64,000 nucleotides of DNA from Nocardioides thalensis (GTDB lineage Bacteria > Actinomycetota > Actinomycetes > Propionibacteriales > Nocardioidaceae): positions 3,371,501 to 3,435,500 of the forward strand of contig NZ_JACCFP010000001.1 of the NCBI RefSeq assembly GCF_013410655.1, read 5' to 3'. The notes under the pieces were generated by a model that had not been told where the DNA came from, ran no database searches, and saw only the letters and a program-made list of their open reading frames with translations. The position numbers and the translations under genes are program-made. Positions 1,312-54,881 of the stretch are shown here, piece by piece. Positions within the stretch are counted from its first letter, which is position 1, and each line of letters starts with the position of its first letter.

Positions 1312-3179
1312 CGCATGCTCAGGGTGTACCGCTTGGTCACGCTGCTCTTGCCCCCGCCGCACGAGGTGAAGGTGAACTTGGCGCGCACCTCGACCTCGCC
1401 GGTACGGCGCAGCTGCCGCTTGGCCTTCCGGGTCGGCTCGAGCGTCAGGTAGAGCTCGTCGCCACCCGGACCGGTGACCTCCCGCTCCACGTGCTTGAAG
1501 AGGGTCGAGTCGACCGGGTCGGCGGTGACCAGCCCGGCGCTGTCGACGTACACCCGGACCCGCACCGCGCCCGTCTCCCGGTCGGCCCGCGCCCGCGAGG
1601 AGACGTAGAGCTCGCCGCCGCGGTTGATGTCCGCCACCATCTCGGTGCCGTCGGCCGTGCCGTCGGAGCGCCACAGCTCCTCGCCGTGGGCGCGGTCGTC
1701 GGCGGCGAAGTAGAGCACGTCACCGGACTCGGTCAGCTCGTTGGGGCTCCGCTCCTTGGTGCCGGGCCCGATGTCCTCGACCATGGTGGTCCCCGCGTCG
1801 GTGCCGTCGGAGCGCCAGAGCTCGCGCCCGTGGGCGCCGTCCCTCGCGGTGAAGAACAGCGTGCCGGCGACCTCGGTCAGCCCGCTCGGGTAGCCGGCGT
1901 ACTCACCCGGGCGGATGTCCTTGACCAGCACCGTCCCCGCCTCGGAGCCGTCGGAGGACCACAGCTCGAGCCCGTGGCTCTCGTCCGGGGCCGCGAAGAA
2001 CAGCCGGTCGCCGACGACCTCGAGGCCGTCCACCCCGTAGTACTCGTCGTCCCCGCCGTTGAAGTCCTCGACCAGGACGGTGCCCGCGTCGGTGCCGTCG
2101 GAGGTCCACAGGTCGCGACCCTCGCTGCCGTCGTCGTCGTTGGCGGTGAAGAAGACCGAGTCGCCCATGGCGGCGAACCCGGTCGGCCGCCCCGACTTGG
2201 TGCCGGGAAGGATGTTCTTCACCATGGCGGTGCCGCCGGGCGTGCCGTCCGACCGCCACAGCTCCTGGCCGTGCTGCCCGTCCCTGGCCCGGAAGAAGAG
2301 GTGATCGCCCGCGGCGGTCAGCTCGGTCGGCTCGCTGTCGTAGGCGCCGGGGTGGACGTCCTTGACCATCACCGTGCCGACGCGGGTGCCGTCCGACGTC
2401 CACAGCTCCTTGCCGTCCTCGCCGTTGTCGGCGCTGAAGAACAGCGAGTCGCCGACGGCGGCCAGGTCCGACGGTCCGCCGTAGTACTCGCTGTACTCGT
2501 CCTCGTTGTCGGCGGGAAGGATGTCCTTGACCAGGACGGTGCCGGCCTTGGTGCCGTCGGACTTCCACAGCTCCTCGCCGTGGGTGCCGTCGTCGGCGGT
2601 GAAGAACAGCGTGTCGCCGGCGGCCGTCAGGTTGGAGATGCCGTTGTAGTAGCTCTCCTCGTCCGTGCTGAAGTGCTTGACCAGGACGGTGCCGGAGCGG
2701 GTGCCGTCGGAGCGCCAGAGCTCGTCGCCGTCCTCGCCGTCGGCGGTGAAGAAGAGCGCGCCGCCGGCCGCGACCAGGCTGCTGCGGCCGTAGTCGTGGT
2801 CGTAGTCGCCCTCACCGTCGGAGCCGAGCCTCTTGAGCCGGACCGTTCCGTTCGCGGTGCCGTCGGTGCGCCACAGGGCACTGCCGGCCCCGTCGGAGGC
2901 GGTGAAGAACATCGTGCCGTCGACGTCGGTCAGGTTGTCGGGCGAGCTGCCGGGCGTGGTGGCGCCTTCGCACGACAGCAGGGCGGTCGCCCGCTGGTCC
3001 GCGCCGGCCGCCGCTGCGGACGGGGCGGTCAGGGCGGCGGCACCGGTGCCGGCCAGCGTCACCGCGGCCGTGGCGGCCGTCGCGGCCCGACGAGCGCGGG
3101 CGCGGCGCCGCAGCTCCTTGGCCCGGGCGACCTGCGCCCGGTGTGCCCGATCCCGTGCGGTGCGCTGTCGTCGGCTCAT
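1308..3179 (-). CDS. Exported ELWxxDGT-repeat protein
   Basis: A 623-residue protein with about nine copies of an ELW(R/K/T)SDGT motif spaced 45-55 residues apart (first copy degenerate, ALWRTDGT), each preceded by an LFFTADD-type strand. This is the hallmark of ELWxxDGT-repeat proteins, predicted beta-propeller-like surface proteins. The N-terminus is unusual: about 33 residues rich in Arg and Ala precede a hydrophobic segment (about 34-58) ending in APSAAAA, a long Sec-type signal. The last 110 residues form a different domain without repeats (VRVRVYVDSAGLV, TFTSCGGGKSS). The start ATG at 3179 has GGGGAGG upstream. The TIGR03032 gene follows with a 4-base overlap, suggesting a joint role. 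Substrate and function are unknown. Confidence 0.85.
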   Translation of the reverse strand: MSRRQRTARDRAHRAQVARAKELRRRARARRAATAATAAVTLAGTGAAALTAPSAAAAGADQRATALLSCEGATTPGSSPDNLTDVDGTMFFTASDGAGSALWRTDGTANGTVRLKRLGSDGEGDYDHDYGRSSLVAAGGALFFTADGEDGDELWRSDGTRSGTVLVKHFSTDEESYYNGISNLTAAGDTLFFTADDGTHGEELWKSDGTKAGTVLVKDILPADNEDEYSEYYGGPSDLAAVGDSLFFSADNGEDGKELWTSDGTRVGTVMVKDVHPGAYDSEPTELTAAGDHLFFRARDGQHGQELWRSDGTPGGTAMVKNILPGTKSGRPTGFAAMGDSVFFTANDDDGSEGRDLWTSDGTDAGTVLVEDFNGGDDEYYGVDGLEVVGDRLFFAAPDESHGLELWSSDGSEAGTVLVKDIRPGEYAGYPSGLTEVAGTLFFTARDGAHGRELWRSDGTDAGTTMVEDIGPGTKERSPNELTESGDVLYFAADDRAHGEELWRSDGTADGTEMVADINRGGELYVSSRARADRETGAVRVRVYVDSAGLVTADPVDSTLFKHVEREVTGPGGDELYLTLEPTRKAKRQLRRTGEVEVRAKFTFTSCGGGKSSVTKRYTLSMR

Positions 3180-17052: not shown

Positions 17053-17059
17053 CCGACGC

Positions 17060-17180
17060 CGAGTCGGCTCGTCTTCACGCTTGAGAAGGGCCGAGTCGGC
17101 GCGTGATCACGCGCCGACTCGGCATCCTGGTGAAGATGGGCCGACTCGCGCTATTTCAGGCGTGAAGATGAGCCGACTCG
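17060..17180. repeat. CGAGTCGG repeat array at convergent junction
   Basis: Two forward cores CGAGTCGG (17060-17067, 17092-17099) are 32 bp apart. Three inverted cores CCGACTCG start at 17114, 17141 and 17173; the last two are also 32 bp apart. Tails flanking the cores are related to TCATCTTCACGC. The array fills the gap between the mdh stop and the DUF3017 stop. Confidence 0.85.
17090..17123. terminator. 34-bp perfect palindrome, likely bidirectional terminator
   Basis: The second forward core and first inverted core of the array, with GCGTGATCACGC between them, form a perfect 34-bp palindrome. In RNA either strand gives a strong hairpin. It ends mdh on the plus strand and the purine/folate operon on the minus strand. 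Confidence 0.65.
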
Positions 17181-17183
17181 GCG

Positions 17184-17534
17184 CTAGAGGCCGGGCTGGT
17201 CGGGGATGCTCGAGGCGAGGAAGAACAGGACGGCGCTGACGCTGCCCACGACCACGACGTCGACCCAGCGGCGCCGTACGGCGAGCATGCCGGCGTCCTT
17301 CTGGGGCAGCACCAGCCGGAAGACCGCGGCGGCGGCGAGGGCGCCGGCGATGACCCGGATGCCGACCCGCCAGTCGGCGAAGGCGACGAGCACCAGGCCC
17401 GCACCCATCGCCAGGAGCACGCAGAGGTAGAGCGCGCCGCCGATCGTCGACGGGTAGCGGCGCGGCTCCTCCGCGTCGGCCTCCGGAGCGACGCCGGCGT
17501 CGTGCTCCTCGTTCTGGTCCTCGATGAGGGTCAC
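17184..17534 (-). CDS. DUF3017 membrane protein
   Basis: A 116-residue membrane protein with an acidic cytoplasmic N-terminus (EDQNEEHDAGVAPEADAEE) and three hydrophobic helices (about 31-50, 54-75 and 91-110). RVGIRVIAGALAAAAVFRLVLPQKDAGMLAVRRR between helices 2 and 3 is the DUF3017 signature. The GTG at 17534 starts five bases after the folD stop, and folD-DUF3017 adjacency is common in actinobacteria. No function is known. Confidence 0.85.
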   Translation of the reverse strand: MTLIEDQNEEHDAGVAPEADAEEPRRYPSTIGGALYLCVLLAMGAGLVLVAFADWRVGIRVIAGALAAAAVFRLVLPQKDAGMLAVRRRWVDVVVVGSVSAVLFFLASSIPDQPGL

Positions 17535-20010: not shown

Positions 20011-20037
20011 CTCATCGGGTCGGTGCTTCACGATGAG
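20011..20037 (-). promoter_or_regulatory. SD-sequestering hairpin before purH
   Basis: On the minus strand CTCATCG (20037-20031) pairs perfectly with CGATGAG (20017-20011). The second arm overlaps the purH Shine-Dalgarno AGGAGA (20012-20007). It lies directly 3' of the ZTP aptamer, so ligand binding could decide whether the ribosome site is free. The pairing is seen; the switching is inferred. Confidence 0.6.
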
Positions 20038-20112
20038 AGGCACCCAGGCGGTCGATGCCGGCTCTTCACTCCCCGGTGGTCCCCCACCTGCGCCAGTCGT
20101 GTGCTGCGCACT
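20036..20112 (-). ncRNA. ZTP riboswitch (pfl motif)
   Basis: The minus-strand leader of purH contains the conserved pieces of the pfl/ZTP aptamer in the right order: CGACTGGCG, a GTGGGGGACCACCGGGGAG hairpin segment, then after a short variable linker the 3' half CCGCCTGGGTGCC. These aptamers sense ZMP/ZTP, which accumulates when 10-formyl-THF is short, and switch on purH and folate genes. Here purH and folD lie immediately downstream, exactly the expected targets. Ends are approximate. Confidence 0.88.
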
Positions 20113-39330: not shown

Positions 39331-39332
39331 CG

Positions 39333-39467
39333 CGAGTCGGCAGAAGTTCGCGTCCGTACGACGCCGAGTCGGCAGAAGTTGTCACACCTGCAGGCCCGAG
39401 TCGGCAGAAGTTTCCGGCAAACTTTTGCCGACTCGCCGCCCTCGCGGCGCCACTTTCTGCCGACTCG
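39333..39467. repeat. CGAGTCGGCAGAAGTT repeat array at convergent junction
   Basis: Three identical forward copies of CGAGTCGGCAGAAGTT begin at 39333, 39365 and 39397, exactly 32 bp apart. Two inverted copies with small changes occupy 39420-39435 and 39452-39467, again 32 bp apart. The 16 bases between forward copies are not conserved. The array spans the whole gap between the YbaK and F420-reductase stops. Confidence 0.9.
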
Positions 39468-39476
39468 GCGCTGCTG

Positions 39477-49789: not shown

Positions 49790-51070
49790 ATGACTCTGCA
49801 GTCCGACAACGCGACCACCGAGCCCGCCGCCCAGCGCGCCGGCTTCGACTCCGACGCGCACCACGCGGCCACCGTCCGCGACGCCGTCACCGACTACCTC
49901 AACCGGCTCCGCGGCGGCGACATGGGATCGCTCCCCGCCATCCTCGGCCTCGTCGTCCTGTTCGCGGTGTTCACCGGTCTCCACGACCGCTTCCTGACCA
50001 CCTACAACATGGCCAACCTCGTGGTGCAGGCCGGCTCGATCATCGTGCTCGCAATGGGCCTGGTGTTCGTGCTCCTCCTCGGCGAGATCGACCTGTCGGC
50101 GGGTGTCGCGGGCGGCGCCTCGGCGACGATCACGACCCTGGTGATGATCGACTACAGCTGGGAGTGGTGGCTCGCCACGCTGGCAGGACTCGCCGCCGGT
50201 GCCGTCATCGGTCTCGTGATCGGCGTCCTGGTGGCCACCCTGGGCATCCCGTCCTTCGTCGTCACGCTCGCGTTCTTCCTCGCCCTCCAGGCGGTCCCGC
50301 TCAAGCTCATCGGCTCGGGCGGCTCGCTCCGGGTCACCGGCGTGCTCCGCGATCTCTCGATCAAGAACGTGCCGGTCACGGCCGGCTGGATCGCAGCGAT
50401 CGCGATCGTGGTCGGCTTCGCCGGCCTGTCGCTGTGGAAGTACCGCACGCGGTCGGCGAAGGGACTGGTCCACAAGCCGCTCGGACTGATCCTGCTGCAG
50501 ATCGGCGTGCTCGCCGCGGTCGTCCTGGGCGTCACCGCCCTCCTGAGCGACAACCGCGCCCCGAACCCGCTGCTGTTCAACATCAGCGGCATCCCGTGGG
50601 CGGCTCCGGTCGTCATCGCACTGCTGCTGTTCTGGACGTTCGTGCTGACCCGCACCCGGTTCGGCCGGCACCTCTACGCCGTCGGCGGCAACGCCGAGGC
50701 CGCGCGCCGCGCGGGCATCAACGTGACCGGCATCAAGATCGCGGCGTTCATGATCTGTACCTCGATGGCGGCCATCAGCGGCCTGCTCGCGGCGTCGTAC
50801 ACCGGCAAGGTCTCCCCGGGCTCCGGCGGCGGCAACGAGCTGCTGTACGCGGTCGCCGCGGCAGTCATCGGCGGCACCAGCCTCTTCGGCGGCCGCGGCC
50901 GCGCGATCGACGCCGTCATCGGCGGTCTGGTGATCGCGACCATCCCCAACGGGCTGGGCCTGCTCAACCAGGCGAGCTACATCAACTTCCTGGTCACCGG
51001 CGGCGTGCTGCTGCTCGCGGCCAGCGTGGACGCGATCTCCCGCCGCCGACGTTCCTCCGCAGGCGTCTAG
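49790..51070 (+). CDS. xylH: Xylose ABC transporter permease
   Basis: A 426-residue permease of the ribose/xylose type with about 10-12 helices. The segment VLAMGLVFVLLLGEIDLSAGVAGGASATI is the conserved helix 2-3 region of this class, FVVTLAFFLALQAVPL follows, and GRHLYAVGGNAEAARRAGINV is the cytoplasmic loop that meets the ATPase. VIGGTSLFGGRGRAIDAVIGGLVI lies near the end. The length and the large insert (SIKNVPVTAGW to SDNRAPNPLLF) match XylH rather than RbsC. The ATG has GAGGAGG upstream. Confidence 0.93.
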   Translation: MTLQSDNATTEPAAQRAGFDSDAHHAATVRDAVTDYLNRLRGGDMGSLPAILGLVVLFAVFTGLHDRFLTTYNMANLVVQAGSIIVLAMGLVFVLLLGEIDLSAGVAGGASATITTLVMIDYSWEWWLATLAGLAAGAVIGLVIGVLVATLGIPSFVVTLAFFLALQAVPLKLIGSGGSLRVTGVLRDLSIKNVPVTAGWIAAIAIVVGFAGLSLWKYRTRSAKGLVHKPLGLILLQIGVLAAVVLGVTALLSDNRAPNPLLFNISGIPWAAPVVIALLLFWTFVLTRTRFGRHLYAVGGNAEAARRAGINVTGIKIAAFMICTSMAAISGLLAASYTGKVSPGSGGGNELLYAVAAAVIGGTSLFGGRGRAIDAVIGGLVIATIPNGLGLLNQASYINFLVTGGVLLLAASVDAISRRRRSSAGV

Positions 51071-51078
51071 CAGGACCG

Positions 51079-52317
51079 ATGACGACCAGGCAGCGCGGCG
51101 CCGGCACCAACCAGGAGGGGGTGCGCCGCCACAATCTCGGGACCCTGCTCCGCCACGTGCACCGGACCGGGGAGATCTCCCGTGCCGAGCTGACCAGCCT
51201 GATGGGGCTCAACCGCAGCACCATCGCGGGGCTGGTCGGCGAGCTGGCGGAGCTCGGGCTCACCGAGCACGCCGACCCGGCCACCGGGTCGGCGGGCGCG
51301 GGGCGGCGTACCGCCGGGCGGCCGTCGGCGGGCGTGCGCGTGGTCGATGCGGGACCGTACGTCGTCGCCGTGGACCTCGGCGTCGACCGCGCGGTCGTGG
51401 CGCGGGTCGGGCTGGGCGGCCGGATCGCCGAGCGCGCCGAGGCCGCGATCAACGAGGACACCGAGGCCTGGCAGGTCGGCGCGGCCGTGGCCGCGCTGGT
51501 GCGACACGTCGTGTCGTGGGCGCCGGAGCACGCGCCCCTGCTGGGCATCGGCATCAGCGTGCCGGGTCTGGTCCGCCGTACGGACGGACTGGTGCGGCAG
51601 GCGCCCAACCTCGGCTGGCGCGACGTGTCGTTCGGGTCGATCGTGCTCGCCGCGCTCGACCTGGACGTGCCGGTCCGGCTCGGCAACGACGCCGACCTCG
51701 GCGCGCTCGCCGAGCACCATCGCGGTGCCGGCGTAGGAATAGACGACCTGATCTACATCTCCGGCAACGTCGGCGTCGGTGCCGGCGTCATCACCGGCGG
51801 GGTGCGGCTGCAGGGCGCCGGCGGCTACGCCGGCGAGGTCGGCCACATGAACTTCGACCCGCGCGGGCCGTTGTGCCATTGCGGCAGTCGCGGCTGCTGG
51901 GAGACGGCCGTCGGCGCGCACGCGATCGCGGCCGCGGTGAAGTCGCCGGCCGACCAGGTGGTGCGGCTCGGCGAGGTGCTCGACGAGATCACCGCTCCCC
52001 CGCGCGAGCTGCGCCCGATCGCCGCCAGCATCGGCCGCGGCCTCGCCGACGTGGTGAACTCCTACAACCCGAGCCTGGTGATCCTGGGCGGCTACTTCCA
52101 GCCGCTGTTCCGGCTGATGCGGTCCGAGGTCACCGCCGGTCTCGCCGAGCGCACGATGGCCCCCGCGCTGGAGTCGGTGCGGCTCGCGGTCCCCGGCCTC
52201 GGCGCCGACTCGGTCCTCCTCGGCGCGGCCGAGATCGCCCTCGAGCCCGTGTTCGCCGACCCCGTCGCCAGCCTCGCCACCGCCATCACCGACGCCCGTT
52301 CCCGCCTCGCCGGCTAG
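51079..52317 (+). CDS. ROK-family transcriptional regulator (xylFGH operon)
   Basis: A 412-residue ROK repressor. The N-terminal winged helix (about 20-65) has SRAELTSLMGLNRSTIAGLVGELAELGL. The sugar-kinase-like domain has VVAVDLGVDRAVV, ISVPGLV, GNDADLGALAEH and the ROK signature GGYAGEVGHMNFDPRGPLCHCGSRGCWET, whose CHC-x5-C residues bind zinc. The ATG at 51079 lies eight bases after xylH. As last gene of the operon it probably controls the operators at 47639 and 48921, with xylose as inducer (inference). It differs clearly from the ROK protein of the opposing operon. Confidence 0.92.
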   Translation: MTTRQRGAGTNQEGVRRHNLGTLLRHVHRTGEISRAELTSLMGLNRSTIAGLVGELAELGLTEHADPATGSAGAGRRTAGRPSAGVRVVDAGPYVVAVDLGVDRAVVARVGLGGRIAERAEAAINEDTEAWQVGAAVAALVRHVVSWAPEHAPLLGIGISVPGLVRRTDGLVRQAPNLGWRDVSFGSIVLAALDLDVPVRLGNDADLGALAEHHRGAGVGIDDLIYISGNVGVGAGVITGGVRLQGAGGYAGEVGHMNFDPRGPLCHCGSRGCWETAVGAHAIAAAVKSPADQVVRLGEVLDEITAPPRELRPIAASIGRGLADVVNSYNPSLVILGGYFQPLFRLMRSEVTAGLAERTMAPALESVRLAVPGLGADSVLLGAAEIALEPVFADPVASLATAITDARSRLAG

Positions 52318-52541
52318 CCGAGTTGTAGGTCATGGTCGGCCGAGTTGTGGGTGATGGTCGGCCGAGTTGTGGGTGATGGTCGGCCGAGTTGTGGGTGCTG
52401 GTCGGCCGAGTTGTACCTGATCACGCGGGTGGTCCACGGCGTACAACTCGACGTGCCACGAGGTCCAACTCGACGTGCCACGAGGTCCAACTCGGCCCGC
52501 CACGAGGTACAACTCGGCCCGCCACGAGGTAGGACTCGGCC
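52318..52541. repeat. Five-forward / five-inverted 22-bp repeat array
   Basis: Five forward units with core CCGAGTTGT start at 52318, 52340, 52362, 52384 and 52406; five inverted units start at 52442, 52464, 52486, 52508 and 52530. All steps are exactly 22 bp. Forward tails read like GGGTGATGGTCGG; inverted units, read on the minus strand, have the same core and a different tail, ACCTCGTGGCGGG. The array fills the gap between the two convergent ROK genes without touching either stop codon. Confidence 0.95.
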
Positions 52542-53702
52542 TTAACCCAGGTCGACAAGGCCGTCGAAGAGGGCGGTGAGGGAGCGCTCGGCGGCGCCGA
52601 GGGCGGCGGCCTCGGTGCCGAGCGCGCCGAGGCGGAGGTCGGGGACCTGCTGAACGGGGGCGGCGAGGGTGGCGGCGAGGACGTCGCGGGCGGGGGCGAG
52701 CACCAGGTCGCCGAGTGGCTCGAAGTAGCCGCCGAGGACGATCACCGAGGGGTCGAGGATGCCGGTGACGATGGCCAGGCCCTGGCCGAGGCGGGCGCCG
52801 ATCCTCTCGACGGCGGCTCGTACGGCGGGCGCGGCCTGCGCCCTCTCGGCCACCACCCGCGCCGTCTCCTCCGGCGTGGCGAGCTCGGGCAGGCCGACCG
52901 CGGCGAGCATCGCGTGCAGGCCGACGGAGGCCTCCCAGCAGCCCGTGCGACCGCAGCCGCAGCGCGCGCCCGGCTCGCCGATCGGCAGGTGGCCGACCTC
53001 GCCGGCGAAGCCGCGGGCGCCGCGCACCAGGCGGCCGCCCTCGACCAGGCCGGCGCCGATGCCGACGGTTCCGGTGAGGTAGAGCAGGTGGCGGCTGCCC
53101 CGGCCGGCGCCGTGGTGGAGCTCGGCGACCGCGGCGCAGTCGGCGTCGTTGTTGACCCGCACCCGGTCGGTCCACCCGAACGCGGCGTCGATGCGCTCGG
53201 CGACGCCGGTGCCGGCCAGGCGCAGGTTGGGCGTCCACGCGATGGTGCGGTCGTCCTCGGTGATCAGCCCGGGCACCGCGGCGGTGGCGCCGACCGGGGT
53301 CTGCCCCGCCACCCGGACCGTGTCGGCGACACCGTCGGCGATGTCGGCGAGCGTCCCCTCGATGTCCCGCACGTCGAGCACGGGGCGGGTCACCCGGTGG
53401 CGGACCTGGCCGGACAGGTCGACGACCACCGCGGCGACGTACTCGACGTTGGCCTCGAACCCGATGCCGACCGGCCGCCCCCCGGCGAGCGTGAGCCGGA
53501 GGCCGGGCCGGCCGCGGTCGCCCGAGCGCACCTGCTCGAGCTCGCGGACGGCGCCGGCGTCCTCCAGGTCACCGACGATCGCGCCGACGGTCGCCTTCGC
53601 CAGCCCGGTGCGCCCGGACAGCTCCGCGCGGCTCGCCGGGCCGTCGACGCGCAGGGAGCGCAGGACCGCTCCCGCGTTGCGGCGCCGTACGGTGTCGGAC
53701 AT
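52542..53702 (-). CDS. ROK-family regulator (XylR-like, xylBA operon)
   Basis: A 386-residue ROK repressor. The DNA-binding part (about 8-50) reads NAGAVLRSLRVDGPASRAELSGRTGLAKATVGAIV (two adjoining pieces). The effector domain has VGIGFEANVEYVAAVVVDL, NNDADCAAVAELHHGAG, GTVGIGAGLVEGG and the zinc signature GEVGHLPIGEPGARCGCGRTGCWEA. ATG 53702 lies 12 bases after the xylA stop, making it the third gene of xylB-xylA-ROK. It most likely represses at the TTTAGT/ACTAAA operator before xylB. With the other ROK protein, the locus has two repressors for one sugar. Confidence 0.92.
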   Translation of the reverse strand: MSDTVRRRNAGAVLRSLRVDGPASRAELSGRTGLAKATVGAIVGDLEDAGAVRELEQVRSGDRGRPGLRLTLAGGRPVGIGFEANVEYVAAVVVDLSGQVRHRVTRPVLDVRDIEGTLADIADGVADTVRVAGQTPVGATAAVPGLITEDDRTIAWTPNLRLAGTGVAERIDAAFGWTDRVRVNNDADCAAVAELHHGAGRGSRHLLYLTGTVGIGAGLVEGGRLVRGARGFAGEVGHLPIGEPGARCGCGRTGCWEASVGLHAMLAAVGLPELATPEETARVVAERAQAAPAVRAAVERIGARLGQGLAIVTGILDPSVIVLGGYFEPLGDLVLAPARDVLAATLAAPVQQVPDLRLGALGTEAAALGAAERSLTALFDGLVDLG

Positions 53703-53714
53703 CGATGCGGCCGC

Positions 53715-54881
53715 TCAGCGCACGCCGTAGAGGTGCTCGAGCGCCAGCTGGTCCAGCCGCTCGAACGCGGCACCGCGGGCGGCGAGCGCCTCGACGTCGG
53801 GCAGCGGCCACTCCAGAAGCTGCTGCCAGCCCTCGTCCTCACCGACCGTCGGCACGGACAGCTCGGGCACCCTCGCGGCCTCCAGCGCGGCGACCACCTC
53901 GGGGTCGGCGCGGAACGCCTTCGCCTTCTCGCGCAGGATCAGGTAGTTGTCGATGCAGGCCTTCGCGGTGACCCACACGCCCTCGTCGTCCTCGGTGCGG
54001 ACCGGCTTGTAGTCGAAGTGCACGGGACCGTCATAGCCGCCCGCGAGCAGCGTGTCCACGACCCAGAAGGCGCCGCGCACGTTGCCGGCGCCGAAGCGCA
54101 GGTCCTGGTCGTACTTCGGGCCGTTCTGCCCGTTGAGGTCGATGTGGAAGAGCTTGCCCTGCCAGAGCGCCTGCGCGTAGCCGGCGGCGGCGTTGAGCCC
54201 GGCCATCTCCTCGTGACCGATCTCCGGGTTGACGCCCACCAGCTCGGGACGGTCGAGGGTCTCGATGAACGCGAGCGCGTGGCCGACGGTCGGCAGCAGG
54301 ATGTCGCCGCGGGGCTCGTTGGGCTTGGGCTCGATCGCGAACTTGAGGTCGTAGCCCTTGTCGGTCACGTACTGGCCGAGGACGTTGAACGCCTCCTGGT
54401 AGCGGTCGAGCGCGGCCGCCACACCCTGCGAGGCGCCGTACTCCGCGCCCTCGCGGCCGCCCCAGCAGACGTAGACCTGGGCGCCGAGCTCGGCGGCGAG
54501 GTCGATGTTGCGCATCACCTTGCGCAGCGCGAACCGGCGCACGTCGCGGTCGTTGGCGGTGAACGCGCCGCCCTTGAACACCGGGTGCGTGAACAGGTTG
54601 GTGGTCGCGGTGGTCACGACCAGGCCGGTGTCGGCGAGGCCCTTCTTGAAGCGCTCGATGATGGCGTCGCGGGTGGCGTCGTCGCTGCCGAACGGGATCA
54701 GGTCGTCGTCGTGGAAGTTCACGCCGTAGGCGCCGACCCCCGCCAGGCGCTCGAGCGCGTAGACCGGATCCATCGGCTCGCGCGTCGCGTCGCCGAACGG
54801 GTCGCGGGCCTGCCAGCCGACGGTCCAGAGGCCGAAGGAGAACTTGTCGCTCGGCGACGGCGCCGGGATCTCGATGGTCAT
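53715..54881 (-). CDS. xylA: Xylose isomerase
   Basis: A 388-residue actinobacterial-type (class I) xylose isomerase, converting D-xylose to D-xylulose with two divalent metals. Conserved parts are [28 protein letters not shown] with the catalytic His-Asp, [41 protein letters not shown] (metal Glu), GVNPEIGHE and [17 protein letters not shown] (metal ligands). ATG 54881 has AGAGGAAG just upstream. It follows xylB by 25 bases in the same operon. Confidence 0.97.

Follow-up and report, generated by a model that had tools for sequence, protein, structure and literature searches.

Phased and oriented repeat arrays behind stop codons in Nocardioides thalensis and related actinobacteria: candidate protein-read boundaries at gene ends

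The array between two convergent ROK genes and its families

The window, i.e. the whole 64,000-nucleotide stretch of DNA that was analysed, corresponds to positions 3371501–3435500 of the single-contig 4,569,810-bp genome of Nocardioides thalensis. It contains two convergent ROK-family genes whose stops, at 52317 and 52542, directly abut a repeat array, one on each side. The features discussed below are the following (window coordinates):

51079–52317, plus strand: ROK-family gene (Pfam ROK match), ending one base ahead of the array
52318–52541, no strand: mirror-symmetric family-A array that occupies the whole 224-bp gap between the two convergent ROK-gene stops with 22-bp units, 5 forward and 5 inverted
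52318–52427, plus strand: left arm of five 22-bp units (core CCGAGTTG) that read in the direction of the upstream ROK gene
52428–52443, no strand: array centre, separating the innermost units of the two arms at a core-to-core distance of 37
52430–52541, minus strand: right arm of five 22-bp units that read in the direction of the minus-strand ROK gene, the outermost one degenerate
52542–53702, minus strand: ROK-family gene with a winged HTH (Pfam ROK match), ending one base past the array
17057–17185, no strand: family-C array between convergent stops, steps >32>23<27<32<, the centre being a perfect palindrome with GTGATCAC
39331–39475, no strand: family-B array between convergent stops, steps >32>32>32<32<

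The forward cores (CCGAGTTG) start at 52318, 52340, 52362, 52384 and 52406, the inverted ones (CAACTCG) are found at 52444, 52466, 52488 and 52510, and the fifth inverted core is degenerate (GGACTCGG, at about 52532). All steps inside either arm are 22 bp. The five-plus-five architecture that the earlier note had recognized between the convergent ROK stops is therefore confirmed, with one degenerate unit. The tails of the two arms differ from each other, and the tail of the innermost right-arm unit overlaps the array centre. The near uniformity of tails claimed within each arm holds for three or four of the five units but not for the innermost units nor for the fifth inverted one. The arrays announced at 17060 and 39333 as relatives of this one are real and likewise occupy the space between convergent stops; they are, however, members of separate families (C and B, respectively) with a 32-bp step, so that the three arrays of the window represent three distinct families. 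A known RNA family can be ruled out for the array at 52318–52541: it has no Rfam match, and a ZMP/ZTP riboswitch located elsewhere (20035–20110, minus strand, score above the Rfam gathering threshold) is all that Rfam detects in the window.

Over the whole genome, the pattern CGAGTYG-N10-30-CGAGTYG has 46+51 matches versus 3+9 for the reversed pattern, and inward-facing cores occur at 44 places versus 8 for the control. The 69 places found by the direct and inward-facing searches were fetched with their flanks, together with 11 control stretches; genes were called by our own codon-usage caller and arrays were kept by a spacing rule. This excluded 26 of the 69 places, which lack the family spacing and 23 of which lie inside called genes, and led to the detection of 43 arrays in the 4.57-Mb genome, which include 170 core matches. 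Three families can be distinguished: family A has a 22-bp unit (CGAGTTGTACNNCGTGGTCCG), whereas the 32-bp units of families B and C consist of a motif (CGAGTCGGCAGAAGTTCGC and CGAGTCGGCNNRTCTTCACGC, respectively) followed by a spacer. The unit is a non-palindromic 22-mer (A) or a motif of about 20 nt plus a spacer (B/C), and palindromes occur only at the centres of two-arm arrays. Among the 51 non-innermost units of families B and C, most motif positions carry 1.5–2 bits, with a few per family at 0.3–1.2, versus mostly 0.1–0.9 bits for spacer positions.

Placement and orientation at gene 3' ends

The arrays are strongly associated with the ends of genes. Thirty-seven of the 43 adjoin a gene 3' end, versus 27.2% of 20,000 length-matched random intergenic segments (binomial 1e-15). 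Gene 3' ends point in from both sides for 17 arrays, from one side for 20 and from none for 6, the corresponding proportions being 2.4%, 24.8% and 72.8% for the random segments. In these counts, the left 3' end of the array at 3343916 was assigned by eye, its gene having been missed by our caller, and the array at 3116473 was scored without a 3' end solely since in-gene core matches stretched its span. The enrichment at convergent junctions expected by the earlier note is therefore found, but the view of a convergent-junction element is too narrow: with 20 arrays flanked by a single 3' end, the element is a feature of gene 3' ends generally, beyond convergent junctions.

The same placement is found in relatives. 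In G290 (a coding cluster in L178 left out), 17 of 18 arrays adjoin a 3' end, as do 39 of 40 in G228, G099, G055 and G075, i.e. 56 of 58 for these five genomes, the rest being divergent (counts read from printed tables). In G058, G053 and G081, 18 of 20 places lie at convergent or co-directional junctions and 2 at divergent ones (table reading). In Pseudonocardiaceae, where CGAGTYG arrays behind stop codons occur too, 39 of the 51 placeable arms are no more than 60 bp away from a 3' end. Arrays mostly start within a few tens of bases of the stop codon, and the first unit can even include this codon, as judged by eye in G053 and G081. Arrays at divergent junctions exist, both in N. thalensis (195839) and in relatives (L187, L223, L241, L249).

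The arms are also oriented relative to the genes that they follow. Single arms, defined in the survey of relatives by the lack of an opposite arm of at least 3 units within 400 bp, have their core in sense at 23 of 29 co-directional junctions (one-sided P 0.001, arms within one genome being non-independent and the arm order being reversed in two Pseudonocardia genomes, CNS-139 and CNS-004): 3/3 in N. thalensis, 2/3 in G058, 2/3 in other Nocardioides and 16/20 in Pseudonocardiaceae. The arms that received no sense call were, in Pseudonocardiaceae, 18 at contig edges, 4 in called genes and 1 divergent (of 73) and, in Nocardioides, 1 at an edge (of 12); the survey covered the 80 listed loci with three cores at 22-bp steps (see below) except for ten (distant phyla, Terrabacter, one Pseudonocardiales MAG and L312). 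At convergent junctions, 15 of 19 single arms are nearer the gene with which they read in sense. Convergent pairs carry two arms that both face inwards. For two-arm arrays at co-directional junctions, no orientation preference was seen by eye, extra units being found on either side.

Phasing, growth and folding of the arms

In nine genomes, a total of 266 steps between units of equal orientation were counted, and 227 of the 249 that fall within 17–37 bp, the range allowed by the searches, are exactly 22 or 32 bp. The recurrence of these steps in relatives, on which the earlier note had staked its proposal, is thereby borne out. Arm-to-arm distances are mostly 21–23, 30–32 or 39–41 bp, with exceptions of 27–29 (G081) and 37 (the array at 52318). 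Steps of 22 and 32 bp fit about two or three helical turns; a helix test on 20 values gave vector lengths of 0.92, 0.92 and 0.90 for periods of 10.0, 10.5 and 11.0 bp, the three periods being alike.

Such phasing could be expected from chromosome-organising sites, bound by a nucleoid or loop-anchoring protein, for which gene ends would only be safe places, and the arrays are indeed scattered over the chromosome, their clustering not being significant (P 0.105). The sense polarity of single arms (23/29) and the proximity to stop codons would be unexpected for such sites, and only 43 arrays were detected, which makes this explanation quite improbable.

The comparison of units indicates how arms grow. 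In family A, neighbours of the same arm are near copies (211 identical cells out of 261 versus 141.3). In families B and C, the innermost units were left out, since their 'spacer' is the array centre; neighbouring units (13 pairs) share 0.90 of their motif and 0.69 of their spacer, versus 0.89 and only 0.38, respectively, for units at different loci (611 pairs). As in minisatellites, neighbours are therefore more alike over their full length than units of unlinked loci. The copying of units arm by arm suggested by the earlier note is supported by both comparisons. As spacers are alike between neighbours and unlike between loci, the arms lengthen via local tandem duplication, which passes on the step as well, and the motif is kept in trans. 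Among the described families that we considered, local tandem duplication is the only one whose defining traits were all found; it accounts for growth but not for the motif common to loci. As neighbouring B/C spacers are alike (0.69, 13 pairs), the exact step could be inherited, and it may partly come from tandem duplication rather than selection.

REP/BIME elements of enterobacteria and pseudomonads are dispersed repeats found at 3' ends and in convergent gaps as inverted units with species-specific sequence. The arrays resemble them in being dispersed, located at 3' ends (37 of 43) and between convergent genes, built with inverted units and specific to species. They might thus be REP/BIME-like repeats, disseminated by a transposase or through copying and tolerated where genes end, with incidental or topological roles involving gyrase or nucleoid proteins. 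However, their unit is not an imperfect palindrome of 20–40 nt; unlike single REP palindromes, the units are direct repeats whose phasing is fixed at exactly 22 or 32 bp, an array having as many as a dozen of them, and single arms are mostly in sense. Furthermore, a common motif without a common spacer at unlinked loci (0.38) indicates that no recent copying of entire elements from locus to locus took place. REP-like spread also implies a cognate RAYT transposase, and no match to PF01797 (Y1_Tnp) was found in the N. thalensis genome, although 5 of 14 control genomes have one. RAYT-driven spread is rejected on this ground, and the recombinase-spread repeat evoked in the earlier note is unsupported for this type of enzyme. 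Overall, a REP/BIME-like nature seems unlikely.

Intrinsic terminators consist of a hairpin followed by a U-tract. The arrays resemble them by their position behind the stop codon and by their strong predicted stems: for the two two-arm arrays that were folded, RNA stability relative to shuffled sequences corresponds to z values of -4.2 on one strand and -6.6 on the other for the array at 52318–52541, and of -10.6 for 17053–17183. They differ from intrinsic terminators by the existence of single arms, by their exact phasing and by the lack of any U-tract terminator in a scan of 51000–54000, which includes the array at 52318–52541. The arrays could nevertheless be protein-independent bidirectional hairpin terminators, whose arms would pair in RNA, the stem halting the polymerase without a U-tract and the tandem units being by-products of duplication. 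Besides the strong folds and the local duplication of arms, the centres of the arrays speak for this possibility: central inverted pairs covary in family C (49/66 identical at three variable positions versus 39.1 with shuffled partners, P 0.003) and in family B (P 0.015), and the two partners come from the same family in each of the 32 central pairs of B/C units. In addition, two-arm arrays occur at co-directional junctions too. The central covariation favours a hairpin or dimer site in the middle of the array; either a hairpin or an origin through inverted duplication would explain it directly.

Other data argue against the hairpin as the functional entity. No covariation was detected for outer mirrored pairs (18/40 versus 19.2 for the 8 pairs of family B; 5 pairs in family A), and mismatches in co-directional arrays show no strand bias, sense RNA having 9 G.U versus 7 A.C, with 25 others. 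Single-arm arrays reach 7 units without any opposite arm of at least 3 units, the two arms of the array at 52318–52541 differ in their tails, and a hairpin would not need equal 22- or 32-bp steps at unrelated loci. Hairpin termination on its own is thus somewhat doubtful. The combination of single arms and of steps common to unlinked loci rather favours a DNA-bound protein.

Dialects, taxonomic range and a model of gene-end boundaries

The words that constitute the arrays vary between closely related genomes. In the genus, a search of 147 genomes for pairs of CGAGTYG revealed a strong excess in some of them (152+116 versus 12+14 in G018, 83+110 versus 15+12 in G115), many others being at or below the control. 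The earlier claim of a core shared beyond chance is thus correct for N. thalensis and many relatives but not for all of them; chance in GC-rich DNA is rejected by the reversed-pattern controls in both. Among the units listed in this search, tails differ from species to species, and steps of, for example, 19, 22, 31 or 32 occur. The sister genome G676, the closest relative by ROK-gene identity (81%), harbours a 32-bp array in place of the 22-bp one at its ROK junction. It has 151+159 pairs of CGACCCG (versus 6+17 for the control) and, by eye, 41 of the 100 pairs listed out of these 310 belong to a CGACCCGGC dialect found at 12 loci, with steps of 31–33, mostly 32. Its CGAGTYG pairs are at control level overall (12+4 versus 11+5), 9 of these 16 matches, located at 5 loci, forming a 22-bp family with units such as CGAGTCGGGTGTCGTGGTGCG. 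In N. thalensis, CGACCCG pairs are also in excess (60+58 versus 9+12), and none of the 50 listed has a 32-bp step.

The ROK junction is convergent at 26 of 29 loci in relatives (L150 being taken from the gene list), and the array is often missing from it. Mirror arrays in other words were found at three of these junctions (L142, L145, L165), some inverted or direct repeat at six (L148, L151, L160, L167, L168, L169) and a long stretch with another dispersed repeat at L144; L154 has a 51-bp gap without clear repeat, and the gap does not exceed 20 bp at 15 junctions. The arrays of L145 (G042) and L165 (G033) have the same mirror architecture with unrelated words (CGAAGTGTTAG... and CGAAGTGCGTGGTTT...), indicating that dialects extend past CGAGTYG. 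Another 22-bp word, present as three inverted units GCCGAACCGGCAGGGTTGGCGTG at a convergent junction of N. thalensis (L109, about 2905–3020; C1, about 4052905), is a further dialect inside this genome.

In the family, the pattern of two forward cores plus one inverted core matches 62 of 197 genomes, few of which exceed the control outside the genus (most clearly G197 and G200), and in the rest of the class sample (394 genomes, 52 with a match) it is at control level. Three cores in the same orientation match 135 of the 394 genomes, many listed matches having other steps and many genomes being at control level. Named genomes contain at least 120 stretches with three cores at 22-bp steps; among the 80 loci listed, Pseudonocardia is foremost, together with Amycolatopsis, Actinophytocola, Umezawaea and Nocardioides. 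Of 14 genomes picked for having matches, 11 have 89–230 triples versus 0–10 in controls, the other three being G706 (236 versus 57), G708 (29 versus 48) and G710 (Terrabacter, one match).

The DUS of Neisseriaceae also differ in dialect between species and form inverted pairs at gene ends, which are found at terminators; according to PMC3630211, each genome contains thousands of them, intragenic copies being common. This likeness raises the possibility of DUS/USS-like uptake signals doubling as terminators. However, the arrays, unlike DUS, are intergenic, tandem and phased, and the genome has only 170 core matches in 43 arrays. In 284 kb (88% coding), there are almost no coding matches at up to 2 mismatches (1 coding and 6 intergenic for family A, 0 and 4 for B, 1 and 6 for C); at 3 mismatches, the counts are 23 and 8 for family A and 12 and 11 for C. 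As the word is not over-represented in coding DNA at up to 2 mismatches, the uptake-signal explanation is rejected as extremely improbable.

Bacterial transcription is taught to end either at a hairpin followed by a U-tract or through Rho. In eukaryotic rDNA, Sal boxes are tandem oriented sites behind the transcription unit to which TTF-I binds, forming a polar roadblock. With a probability of about 0.4, we propose from the sequence patterns that the arrays are polar, helically phased DNA–protein arrays that would end transcription, one arm per gene. Their putative functioning can be described as follows. One or several sequence-specific DNA-binding proteins, co-evolving with the dialect, would occupy the units side by side. 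The bound protein would act as a polar roadblock that halts RNA polymerase leaving the gene end, so that antisense read-through into the neighbouring gene would be prevented. A hairpin or a dimer site for the protein may be added by the inverted pair at the centre. As arms lengthen through local tandem duplication, more units would give a stronger or more redundant block. That DNA-bound proteins can block RNA polymerase is stated in a review (PMC10310618). The coexistence of several families in one genome requires several words or several proteins, and 3' UTR RNA, instead of DNA, could be what is read.

A wider formulation, proposed more tentatively, is that Nocardioidaceae and Pseudonocardiaceae possess oriented phased arrays at gene ends that are read as DNA by a predicted fast-evolving terminating protein, i.e. 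a bacterial counterpart of the TTF-I/Sal-box system, the dialects recording the co-evolution of protein and site. The likeness would lie in tandem, oriented protein sites acting as a polar roadblock behind the transcription unit, with a binding protein that is only predicted here; the arrays differ from Sal boxes in being bacterial, genome-wide and of other sequence. The nearest systems in behaviour are BIMEs and, by analogy, Sal-box arrays. To these can be added the DUS terminator pairs described in PMC3630211. No prior description of such phased gene-end arrays was found in the literature under open licence. Phased, oriented arrays found genome-wide behind stop codons, with dialects in sister species, point to a gene-end boundary read by a protein. 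If true, this would give direct entry to how high-GC actinobacteria terminate without U-tracts, and would provide a natural example of a DNA word that changes in step with its reader.

Two minor observations concern other sequences. A second class of dispersed palindromic repeats (GAGGTTTCGAGGCTCG...CTCGCACCTCAACCACC) is found at convergent junctions of N. thalensis (L102, about 3010; L103, about 11259), and stretches resembling it occur at the ROK junction of G146 (L144). Lastly, three stretches on two viral contigs (IMG/VR, L171–L173) carry three CGAGTYG cores at 22-bp steps.
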